A DNA stretch of 64,000 nt, taken from contig OX453278.1 of assembly GCA_949710005.1 (NCBI GenBank), forward strand, positions 4,113,501 through 4,177,500, in the 5' to 3' direction. This stretch comes from Ricordea florida (taxonomy: Eukaryota > Cnidaria > Anthozoa > Corallimorpharia > Ricordeidae). A program made the translations under genes and the position numbers. How positions within the stretch are numbered: position 1 is the stretch's first letter; the number at the start of each line of letters is the position of its first letter. Positions 19,490 to 55,747 of the stretch are shown one piece after another. The notes beneath the pieces are model-generated. The model saw nothing but the letters and a program-made list of their open reading frames with translations. It was not told where the DNA came from and made no database searches.

Positions 19490-21408
19490 ATGATTGATTT
19501 TTGTAGTTTACCAAACCTTCAACAGAATAGCGCAAATGTAGATGAGACTGAAAAGGCACGCTCAAAGGATTTTGCAGGTAGTAGTTAAATTTCTTTCCAG
19601 ATCATAGTGTAGTGTTGTTGAGTTTGTGGCCTAATTCGATGGAGCTTTTAAAGTTGTAGACAACACCGAAAAACTCCCACCGCTTTCAAGTTACCAACTT
19701 GATTACAGCAAACACTCAGTGAAAAGAAACTTTGCAGATTTCCAGCCAGGTAATTATAGATTTGGTAAAATAACAAGGATGGTATATGTTGAGTATGGAG
19801 AATTTGTGAAAGATGTATTTTACAGCATGCCACAAGGGGTCCACAAGCAAACCTCACAAAAAAGGATCGGAAATCTGAATTCTCCCAATAGAAGTTGAAT
19901 CTACGACGTTCCGATCCAGTAGTTCACTCCATAAAGTCGGTGGTTTTCTAAACGTTTTTGAATAATTTATACATATGTTTTGAATAATTTATGTTTGTGT
20001 TCTTGAACAATTTATGCTTGTTTTTACAACTACCAACGGAAGCACAATTTTTGAAAGGTTTGGAAAACATGTCTATTTGCAAATTTTAGGGCTACAAAGC
20101 AAGTGTTCAGATTGGGGCACCTTTTTTTATTTCGAAGGTGGTATTAGCTTTTTTATTATACCACCTACTGATAACCGTATGGTGTACCTGGCCTATAAGG
20201 GATCACACTACAGATTTATACAAATAGCCCAATTAATCACCTATATCTCGGTTACCAGTTAGTTCCTGGCTTGTAAAACAACGTTTTCCAGGTCAATCAG
20301 CGAGCCGCAGTAGAAAGGGGTCACTTTTGAAAGAAACTGGTGCTGCGTCGAAGAAAACTTGGAAAACACAAAAATGGGTTCACAAAACGAGATGTTCAAG
20401 TATATGTAAGTTGTATACCAACACAATTTAAAACGGAACCTGACGTTTCAAGCGGTGGCGTTCGTTTATCGGTGGCTGGTACGTTGATTGGTTGCCGTTT
20501 TTTATGTTACGTTTACCATGGCTTTTTGGTTCGTTGGTAAGTTGGCTTTTGCTAATTTTGTCTCCAGGCAAAACAAGCCCCAAGTTCATGCAATCTCCTT
20601 CAGTGGCTCCCATGACAACAACATTCAATGAAAGCTACCGCGGTGTTTATGGTCCTCCCGCTTCTAACAAGAGGTAAGGACCTCTTCTTTGCGGCACTCA
20701 GATTACCAAAATAAACAGTGTTATTATAGAGTACTAGTCAGTAGCCTTCCAAAGAATGATCACCGTGACACTGTATGGTTTGATCCACAGATGAAAAAGG
20801 TTAGAACCACCCTGTATATGGTAAAACGAACACTACCACAGTACAATACTGTTCAGTAGCTTTTTTACGGTAACACTGCATGGTTTGATCCACAGATGAA
20901 AAAGTTAAGACCACACTGTGTAGTAAAACAAAGAGTACCACAGTACAGTACTGTTCAGCAGCTTTCCAAAGAACTGTCACGGTACACTCTTTTGTCTACT
21001 TTTTTACTACGTACTCTGGTCCTAATATGATGAATGAAACCATGAAATGTTATATTGTCTTTATCATGAAAGGAATACAAAACAGACTGCACCTGCTGCA
21101 ATCTGATCTTTGTTTTTCACTTGCACGGTTACGTGACGTTGATTGTAGCCTATTACTGAGTAGACGTCCTTGCCGTTAGCTGTCATAAATTAGATGGTTA
21201 CACGTTTTTGAATAGGCCCAAGCAATTCCTCCCCGGTCCCTACAGAGTGGGACCTTCTTCTTACAAGGTCGATTTCTGCCCCAGACCTCTGAGGAAGCGC
21301 ACACCGCCAAGAGTACGAAAAGGAAATGTTCTAAATATATATCCTGGAAATGTGTTGTATCCTTACAAGGTTCCTGAGGAGATGAGAAAACTAGTTATGA
21401 AACATTAG
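19490..21408 (+). CDS. Small uncharacterised protein, cluster family member 1 (166 aa)
   Basis: Exons 19490-19577, 20292-20405, 20568-20673 and 21216-21408, with GT/AG borders and phases 1-1-2. The third exon is 106 nt, the same length as exon 2 of the member at 53013-55747. Its end, TTTFNESYRGVYGPPA, aligns with TTTYKREYAGTYGSPA there. The last exon has GPSSYKVDF where other members have S-T-Y-x-x-x-F, then RKGNVLNIYPGNV where they have R-K/x-N-N-P-x-P. It ends at VMKH without the later V/I-W exon. This is the only member on the plus strand. I do not recognise the family in named proteins. It is rich in Pro, Tyr and basic residues, with no signal peptide or membrane segment. Exons 3 and 4 are well supported; exons 1 and 2 rest on splice phase and are less certain. 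Confidence 0.68.
20735..20990 (-). repeat. 106-bp satellite, about 2.5 degenerate units
   Basis: Reverse-orientation units inside intron 3 (20674-21215) of family member 1, more diverged than other arrays (CACCGTGACACTGTATGG). Confidence 0.9.
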
Positions 21409-21426
21409 TTACAAACAGACGTGTCG

Positions 21427-52310: not shown

Positions 52311-53012
52311 TGTTCCGGCTGTTGGTGCTCAAATTTTCAGCTTCGAAAGACGCAGCTTGTGTAAGTGTTTTCAAATTTGAGTTTAGCAAAGTACACCTTT
52401 ACGTACACACAAAAGTATAAACAAACTAACTTCTCAAAGCTTCAAACGCCTGTGGTCTGTTTAATTAACACTTCATTAAAATCTTCCTTTGGACAGAAAA
52501 CCCCCATGAGAGAATTGTAAACATATAAAACAAATATTTGCAAGTTAAATTTCTTTTATTATTCATTTCATAAAACAGACGGCCACTTTGTTGACGAACT
52601 TAACGTTCAAATTAAATGGGTTTCTCTTTTTCCACAACTGTGGTTTTCGTTGAAATGGAGGTGGCATTGTTGAACAAAAGCTTTTGAAAATGCTAAACCA
52701 GAGGTTCAGCAATAATTTCGTATTAATTTATATTACTAAGTTTGGAAATTTGCTGAATCCTACACGGAGAAATAAAACAAAGAACAAAGCATACATAATA
52801 TATTGAGTTAAGGACTTTCCGATAATTCTGCACTTTCACGTAAATTGTGCTTACATGCGAACGTGAATGTAACTCACTCTGGCTTTGCACACAAAGGTAA
52901 ATAAATTAACAGCACCTTTGCGTAAACGTGGTTAGTTAAGAGCTATTCAAACGTTAAGATGGTAAATTGACTGATTAATAGATTTCTTCGCTTCCTGATT
53001 AACTTCCGGACA

Positions 53013-55747
53013 TCATCTTTTCATGTCGGAATCCATCCTGGCGGGCTCCAATTCTTCGTGACTTTTCCTAGATGAAGGATGGTCTATAAACGACAAAAAA
53101 AAGCTTAAGTTACCAATATGATTTAAGTAAAAACGAGACTCGAGCAATAGCAGGCAACAGAGTTGGTATCTCGAAAGACCTGAAAATTGCCGAACGTTTT
53201 CAGGTGCAAAACCCATACTGCAGTTCAGGAGCTTTCGAGGAAAGCGCGCCAGGTTTCTGTATAATTAAGCCCGATTTGGGGTGGAAAGTTCAAGTACCTT
53301 GAAGAGGAGGGACATAATCTTGTTGATAAATGGACCTAATCTTGTCCTGGCACACTTTTCGCAGGAGCTCAGAGCTAGAGGAACCTGCTGGTGCTATCAA
53401 GCGATGGTTGACTGGAGGGAGCTTGCTGTAATGCGACCACACAAAGAAGTCCTGCGAAGAAAAAAACAAACACAAAGCGAAAAGTTATCAGAATCTACAA
53501 CTTCAGTCTCTTAAAGTCACTCTTATTTGTAGATCAAATAATGCAGTGTGGCACACGATATTGTAACAATGCAGTTTGTAAAGCTGCTGTACAGTACTGT
53601 GATGTGACACTGTTTGTTTTATTATGTATGCAGAATGGTTCTAACTTTTTCATCCGTGGATCAAACCATACAGTGTGACCATTCTTTGGAAAGCTGCTGA
53701 ACAGTACTGCGCTGTTTCAGTTATTTTACTATACGATGTACAGAACTTGATACAGATCTTTGGAATCTGAACCCTAAGCGGATATTTTTGCCTGTGTATT
53801 CAGGAACCCTTGGCGTGGGCTTTTAAAACCAGTCACTTGCAAGCCGCTGCTTCATTTTACTTACCCTGTTTGGGTGATTGAAAACTTGCTCCATGTTGTG
53901 GGGATGAGGGTTGTTCTTGCGGTTACCCGAGGAGGTGCCATATGGCACTCTAATCCTGAGGTTTGGCTGGTTTGTCTGAAAGTGGGCCCTGTATGTGGAC
54001 CCTACATCGGGTTGTCCCGAAGGATAGAACCTTGAAGTGCGAACCCTAAAGAGAAGAAATTCACAACATCAAAACGCGATTGATTTAAGTACACTTTCCG
54101 ATAGAAATTTTCCCGAATATATTAGGCCTAATCTCCATTCAGTCTCGAACTATAATTTAAGATCCTCAGCAGTACCAGTCATAAGTACTCCTAAAGAAAG
54201 AAACACTTTTCAGGACCGTAGTGCTACACTTTTTAATAAATTACTTGTTAGAATTAGAAATATAGATGACTACGGACGTTTCTGCAGAAGTGTTAAGTAA
54301 TGGCTTGCGTAATAGCATTTTCAAGCGTCTACATGTGTATTATGCATGACTACTAGTTTGGTATTTTATCATCAAGTTGTAAATCTAAGTCGTTTTACAA
54401 GCATCTAATTAGTTAGACTAGTATAGTTTTAGTATCTTAGCATATTGAAAAATGAAGAGCCACTACATGGGAATGTTTCCGATAAAGGTCATTATTATTA
54501 TTTATTATTATTATTAAGTACCTCTGTTACAAGTCAACATATCCATAATTGTTGTCAAATATTGTTAGACTGCAGTAAAACATTCTTTTGTTGTCTTTAG
54601 TTGCGGATGGCGACGATACAAATGGATTACAACTTGAAAAGTTTGGTTCTAATTTTTCAAGCTTGACCCCTCTGCCTTCCATGTTAAAGTTGCCATGGAA
54701 AATTTAGAACCGTTTCCTTTAAAGATCTTTTTAATATTTTCGTTTGGTTGTGAGAGATCTTCTTCACGGACAAGCAAAGTTGCACATTCGAAATTGTGGA
54801 AAAGCAGTGACTAAGGGCATGCAACTCCCCCCGGACTAAGATCTATTTAGACGCATCGTAGGTATTTATCTGAATGAAAAGCTGCCTTACCTGGCACCAG
54901 GAGCCGGGGATCCGTACGTCCCTGCGTATTCTCTTTTGTACGTGGTCGTAAAGGCGGAAGGGACACGAGAATACACATCTTGAGAAGCCGTAGATGCTGC
55001 AACAGATAATAATGGGTTAATTCTTAAACAAAAAGCTAACAAGCCTGTACTTCGTGAGCCGCTTTACAGTAGGGCAGGATTCAATTGAAGCTGGAAAAGA
55101 AATTTGCAAAATATGTCTTGTCTCGACAAATAGTCATGTCTAATTCCGTTTCACTGAATTCTACCCTTTTAGCCCGAACATCAAAGTACATGTGATCCCT
55201 ATACATTTTATACAGTGCTAGTAAGGAGAATTTGATAAAATATCAAAAGCAATTCACCGCTGGTGATCGTTTCCTTATATTATCATTACGTGTATTCATA
55301 ACTGTGTATTGACATCAACAGGAGAAATTAACTTCTGATCACTACTGAGAGTTATGTAGTTTAATTTCGTACATTCAAGTCGGCACTGTAGCTGAGGTAC
55401 AGAGTTAAAACTGAACTGCTTTTGTTTATCATTGTTATCGCAGGCTGACGAATTCGCGATTTAGATTAATAGTTAACTGCGGAAGAAACCTGATCAAAGT
55501 TACTCAAAAAAGTAAAAAGTTTCAAAAGTTATTGCATAAATAGATGAAGCATAATGACGAAAATTTGCTAGTGGATTTTCGTTTAATGGATCGAGGCAGT
55601 GTGAACCTTCGCATGATGCTTAACCTTGTTTGCTCATTTCACTAACCTTGTGACATGCACAGTTGCTCGCCTTATAATTCAGTACAAATTTTGACAGATT
55701 AAAGCAAAATATCACCACGTACCTCCATCTGTCGCTATATTTCTCAT
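53013..55747 (-). CDS. Small uncharacterised protein, cluster family member 5 (178 aa)
   Basis: Exons from 5' to 3': 55723-55747, 54891-54996, 53865-54045, 53298-53451, 53013-53083; phases 1-2-0-1. Exon 3 is the clearest family exon: GSTYRAHFQ, then RKNNPHPHNMEQVFNHPNR directly before a GTAAGT donor. Exon 4 begins DFFVWSHYSKLPPV, and the C-terminus ends MDSDMKR. The first exon encodes eight residues. Intron 3 holds two 106-bp satellite units. Intron 2 holds an antisense non-LTR fragment whose tail reaches about 54520. The protein is Tyr-, Ser-, Pro- and Arg-rich and soluble-looking. A microtubule-associated role would fit the composition but is not shown by the sequence. Confidence 0.8.
53515..53755 (+). 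repeat. 106-bp satellite, about 2 units
   Basis: Forward units in intron 3 (53452-53864) of family member 5. Confidence 0.88.
54055..54520 (+). mobile_element. Truncated non-LTR retrotransposon fragment in intron 2 of family member 5
   Basis: Plus-strand frame to a stop at 54298-54300 with YNLRSSAVPVISTPKERNTF and ATLFNKLLVRIRNID, the usual end of another reverse-transcriptase clade. It is followed by a (ATT)n tail at about 54490-54515. It is antisense to the host gene and begins about 10 bp from the exon end at 54045. Confidence 0.7.

Follow-up and report, generated by a model that had tools for sequence, protein, structure and literature searches.

A cluster of five short, spliced candidate genes, here called A to E, was analyzed in a 64,000-nucleotide (nt) window of the corallimorpharian Ricordea florida (contig OX453278.1, positions 4,113,501 to 4,177,500; C7:4113501-4177500 in our numbering). 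Their products are probably short paralogues among the Mn-repeat microtubule inner proteins, in a TEX26/CIMIP6-like family. As judged from the sequences, the cluster holds possible gene models of common origin with an excess of Mn units, D and E being related to CIMIP6 and all five to a longer gene, F, located outside the window. In the sections of PMC10973386 consulted, the Mn unit is given as [TS][TS]x4[YF], a predicted short helix contacting tubulin in the lumen, and the proteins named as carrying it include the SAXO proteins, MAP6, TEX26, C2ORF73 (CIMIP6) and MDM1. The genome searched comprised 538 Mb in 48 contigs. Coordinates and protein lengths in amino acids (aa) are collected in Table 1.

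Gene models and relatedness of A to E

Start codons were chosen by visual inspection, as were the exon ends, the latter so as to give GT...AG sites. When the models were rebuilt exon by exon, all 19 introns were GT...AG and every frame was open from ATG to stop. Because the exon ends were chosen in this way, the models are possible ones and do not in themselves demonstrate transcription; at that strength, the five spliced genes with 24 exons proposed in an earlier, sequence-only reading of this DNA stand. The predicted proteins are basic and rich in proline and tyrosine, with isoelectric points of 9.8-10.9.

The exon lengths that had been singled out as conserved are identical, with 106 nt in exon 3 of A and exon 2 of E and 71 nt in the last exons of C and E. 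The phase series 1-2-0-1 was recovered for B, C and E, as was 1-1-2 for A, whereas D, formerly also read as 1-1-2, is 1-1-2-0. A phase-2 intron precedes the NNPxP exon in B to E and is found at the corresponding site in A. In four of the five genes a phase-0 intron lies before V/I-W (A stops earlier), and the tryptophan is residue 5 after it in all four. The motifs themselves, previously described as shared by the whole cluster, are less uniform: the strict STYxxxF form is present in B, D and E but not in A or C (Table 1), and NNPxP and the V/I-W dipeptide occur in B to E, A having neither. In B, D and E an exon-bounded core can be recognized, consisting of an Mn unit, an Mn unit together with RKNNPHP or RHNNPQP, and V/I-W, to which E adds another unit. 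Remnants of this core are NNPHP, V-W and a degenerate unit thereafter in C, and Mn units alone in A.

Pairwise blastp E-values, computed per single pair and not per database, were 3e-16 for D-E, 4e-11 for B-D, 1e-7 for B-E, 4e-5 for A-E, 7e-5 for A-D, 3e-4 for C-D and 6e-4 for C-E; A-C (0.05), B-C (0.08) and A-B (0.09) were weak. The scores of seven of the ten pairs were reached by at most one of 500 shuffles (none for D-E, B-D, B-E and A-D; one each for A-E, C-D and C-E), and those of A-B, A-C and B-C by 74, 25 and 46. A and C are joined to the family via D and E. The first unit of C is unrecognizable, and its membership depends on RNNPHP, on V-W and on the phases of its introns. On these sequences, A to E are plausible genes of one family, with C as a marginal member. 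In a tree of six core regions, none of the three inner branches was well supported and branch lengths ranged from 0.78 to 3.11 changes per column. Such lengths fit the suggestion that the cluster is old or fast-evolving, and are equally compatible with either.

The family extends beyond these five genes, with the longer gene F and a weaker relative, G, on the same chromosome. Used as a genome query, the central exon of D identified five places: D itself, E (6.5e-4) and, more weakly, a site 0.87 Mb along C7 (0.09), gene B (0.16) and a place on contig C4 (4.95). A basic-type residue followed by NNPHP occurs at 25 places in the genome, and [ST]TYxxx[FY] was seen upstream at four of these (frames read by eye), which correspond to D and E and, on C7, to F at 0.87 Mb and G at 2.30 Mb. 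A fifth pattern match that belongs to the family is gene C, which has no such unit upstream, and B, with NNPQP, falls outside the pattern. In the middle of F the intron phases run 1-2-0-1, and its units read TTNRREF, STYQCEF...RRNNPHP and AFMIW...STYQSDY. Its first seven exons (309 aa) aligned with E at 8e-18 over 136 columns, and with D, A, B and C at 4e-13, 1e-5, 1e-3 and 8e-3. Used as genome queries, an exon of F matched E (0.02) and D (0.2), an exon of B matched itself and D (0.39), and a 60-aa piece and the V-W exon of E found only themselves. The similarity between G and F (3e-5) lies in the NNPHP exon. As a genome query, the exon of G found only itself, and the Pfam matches of G were weak (DUF4722, 0.014; SPATIAL, 0.069); G may be a distant relative. 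No further members were found within the window or 10 kb on each side with profiles of the three core exons, and none of the 12 pattern matches in viral contigs or the 33 in prokaryote contigs was confirmed as a relative.

It is very improbable that A to E are not one family and resemble each other by chance, or by convergence towards a short, basic protein rich in Pro and Tyr. Three of the ten pairs do not rise above shuffles, and the RxNNPHP pattern is rarer (25 places) than its reversed control (59 places) and alone proves nothing. The values for D-E, B-D and E-F and the agreement of the intron phases argue for relatedness, and for A, B, D and E a chance origin is already unlikely. The comparison with F also bears on whether A to E are partial, decaying and functionless duplicates of an F-like gene, which we consider unlikely. 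The C-terminal half of F is missing from all five, whose proteins stop after the core or the next short exon; motifs have been lost in A and C, and a transposase gene is situated between cluster members. Five open models with usable splice sites, and a tryptophan register kept after the intron in four of the five genes despite the divergence, speak against such decay and suggest constraint.

Table 1. Predicted genes and motif units. Positions refer to the window unless a contig is named.
Feature	Position	Strand	Exons or units	Phases and remarks
Gene A, 158 aa	19490..21408	+	19490-19577, 19660-19749, 20568-20673, 21216-21408	1-1-2
Gene A, Mn-like units		+	SSYQLDY 19686-19706, TTFNESY 20618-20638, SSYKVDF 21256-21276
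Gene B, 195 aa	25667..28159	-	28036-28159, 27740-27917, 27099-27270, 26206-26257, 25667-25728	1-2-0-1
Gene B, motifs		-	TKYNADF 27775-27795, STYQQHF 27204-27224, NNPQP 27132-27146, IW 26243-26248
Gene C, 189 aa	42770..45829	-	45757-45829, 45522-45624, 44557-44707, 43907-44078, 42770-42840	1-2-0-1; weakest member
Gene C, motifs		-	NNPHP 44593-44607, VW 44064-44069, STYQQEI 43935-43955	STYQQEI degenerate, downstream of V-W
Gene D, 146 aa	48153..50134	-	50098-50134, 49107-49199, 48925-49018, 48453-48621, 48153-48200	1-1-2-0
Gene D, motifs		-	STYQKDY 49165-49185, SKYRDEF 48960-48980, STYRANF 48558-48578, NNPHP 48489-48503, VW 48186-48191
Gene E, 178 aa	53013..55747	-	55723-55747, 54891-54996, 53865-54045, 53298-53451, 53013-53083	1-2-0-1; member nearest F
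Gene E, motifs		-	TTYKREY 54926-54946, STYRAHF 53979-53999, NNPHP 53901-53915, VW 53437-53442, SIYQQDY 53314-53334
Gene F, 366 aa	C7:872714-884538		nine exons	last two exons placed by eye past a repeat-rich stretch
Gene G, 303 aa	L033 4534-9034 (C7 about 2.30 Mb)		TTYSATY...RRNNPHP	C-terminal half differs
MDM1 homologue, 560 aa	12504..17414	+	12504-12524, 13074-13394, 14464-14722, 15033-15156, 15786-15897, 16281-16319, 16608-17414	seven exons

Mn units and comparison with CIMIP6 and TEX26

The STYxxxF motif conforms to the Mn unit as worded in the consulted sections of PMC10973386. Nine matches to [TS][TS]x4[YF] were counted in A to E against 1.96 expected, a number reached by 4 of 20000 shuffles. 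The form with Y/F at the third place, which was defined only after the sequences had been seen, occurs eight times against 0.21 expected (0 of 20000 shuffles; none in C). Two or more strict units were found in A (3), D (2) and E (2), while the units of B are STYQQHF, TSLSALY, which is a formal match, and the relaxed TKYNADF.

The sequence-only reading knew of no named family with this motif set, but the CIMIP6 gene of the same genome shows an Mn unit and RKNxPHP in the same order. With the CIMIP6 Pfam profile PF15667, one strong gene was identified (C4:11610837-11611271, 1.5e-29; the protein scores 3.8e-32), overlapping the C4 place touched by the central exon of D. It reads TSYEAHY...SAGRKNKPHP...STTRSDYCPP, which is the order of the units in D and E, and its Pfam match begins at residue 33, with RKNKPHP at the start and TSYEAHY just outside. 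It differs from A to E by having NKPHP for NNPHP, by its single-exon open frame and by V/I-W, which was not seen at the corresponding place. E (2e-5) and D (6e-4) matched this protein, and in neither case did any of 1000 shuffles score as high. With hhalign, a B/D/E/F profile aligned to it via the three motifs (E 2.2e-4, probability 45%), and the central-exon profile ranked it first of 1002 sequences, the others being its reverse and 1000 shuffles. F was also considered as a candidate CIMIP6 and rejected, because the C4 gene is a far better match.

The label TEX26 for F rests on an approximate, putative human TEX26 sequence. F aligned with this approximate query over 251 columns at 1e-9, and full-length F scored 43.5 bits against it, a value reached by none of 1000 shuffles (maximum 29.3). 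Curated Pfam models gave no match to the approximate sequence. TEX26 is listed as an Mn-repeat protein in the consulted part of PMC10973386, and its C-terminal half is absent from A to E. Owing to an empty genome search and a poor profile fit of the approximate sequence, the identity of F as TEX26 is put forward only as a lead.

A number of results weigh against placing A to E in a TEX26/CIMIP6-like family. In the comparison with the genome's CIMIP6, the scores of A, B, C and F were reached by 100, 228, 283 and 66 of 1000 shuffles, and CIMIP6 was not among the four best with the first- and third-exon (unit) profiles. C has no strict Mn unit (only STYQQEI), below the two or more of A, D and E. 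No Pfam family was matched by the five proteins at E 10, nor by their exon pieces; this includes PF15667, for which the cut-off is 27 bits and for which the 309-aa form of F gave 14.1 bits (E 0.03) and full-length F no match. Sequence searches of the PDB returned nothing meaningful: E matched only a designed helix bundle (0.006) and the five-row family profile hnRNP L (0.87), while D, F and the four-row family profile had no hit. An AlphaFold2 model of the central exon of E was of low confidence (predicted local distance difference test, pLDDT, 55.3), yielded no DSSP output and is uninformative on the short helix of about seven residues predicted for each unit. The approximate TEX26 sequence, searched exon by exon, gave no matches in the genome, and it fitted the B/D/E/F profile at E 0.02 with a probability of 2.4%. 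Among the matches listed in a literature search, no paper on this cluster was recognized. The fit to the Mn unit, as excerpted from PMC10973386, the scores of D and E above shuffles against CIMIP6 and the relative F nevertheless lend sequence-level support to the original guess that A to E may be ciliary microtubule inner proteins.

Neighboring genes and repeats

A homologue of MDM1 lies 2.1 kb upstream of gene A (PF15501, 7e-16; 58.7 bits against a cut-off of 27). It contains SEYARHY, STYKNDY and SEYTSHY units, and MDM1 is listed among the predicted Mn-repeat proteins in the sections of PMC10973386 consulted. The likeness between MDM1 and A to F is limited to the motif (best 18.1 bits), and A to E show no match to PF15501; since the similarity stops at the motif, proximity to MDM1 was not used as evidence of descent. 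Predicted Mn-repeat genes of two types, MDM1 and gene A, are in any case found side by side. Near the start of MDM1, an open frame on the opposite (minus) strand (11992-12270) possibly shares its promoter region. Downstream of gene A, a long tandem array with a CCAAACAATCACC-type unit (21680-23960) is open in several frames through low complexity.

Of the two features reported to lie between members of the cluster, STK16 is matched by one exon (2buj, 1.2e-13), and where an intact Harbinger element had been read a DDE_Tnp_4 transposase is present in two open pieces (28521-29234 and 29303-29722). The Harbinger-like stretch covers 28521-30641 and includes, beside these pieces, a 235-aa open frame on the minus strand (29934-30641). 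A short repeat related to 'tggtttgatccacagatgaaaaagttagaaccacactgtatagtaaaac' recurs many times, also in introns of A to E, at about 38600-40350, 44180-44480 and 48660-48960, with further stretches at 49440-50000, 53530-53720 and 57350-58260. In the genome as a whole, 61 exon matches to the GFP family were found, 57 of them on contig C11 and many with internal stops, indicating a large fluorescent-protein cluster. Such matches would point to an anthozoan source, probably a coral.

Proposed mode of action

We infer for A to E expression, binding to tubulin, a place in the lumen and a cell type. Most probably, each protein would lie stretched out against the luminal wall of a doublet or centriolar microtubule, and every Mn unit would be a short helix lodged between subunits of tubulin, providing one tubulin contact. 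The conserved RKNNPHP-V/I-W stretch between the units would set the spacing or add a contact, and the copies A to E would be variants suited to particular ciliated cells or to sperm.

Some Mn-repeat proteins of the MAP6/SAXO type act on the microtubule exterior. Neither the motif nor the composition fixes the side of the microtubule wall, and MAP6 and the SAXO proteins are among the Mn-repeat proteins in the consulted part of PMC10973386. Nonetheless, we find it rather doubtful that A to E bind microtubules or other cytoskeleton from the outside, or bundle tektin-like filaments, as the nearest curated family, CIMIP6, carries the name of a ciliary inner protein and the contacts of Mn units described in the same sections of PMC10973386 are luminal.

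More tentatively, and with less confidence than we place in membership of a TEX26/CIMIP6-like family, RKNNPHP-V/I-W might itself be a microtubule-lumen module, partly common to CIMIP6, the TEX26-like gene and the short coral paralogues, which this lineage diversified in tuning cilia and sperm tails by cell type. TEX26 and C2ORF73 were without assigned structure or function when analyzed in PMC10973386, as far as the consulted sections report. If A to E are indeed inner proteins of this family, an early-branching animal would have a local set of one microtubule inner protein type, the stretch between the Mn units would point to a contact absent from the modules named in those sections of PMC10973386, and the family would offer a means of studying two human genes, TEX26 and C2ORF73.

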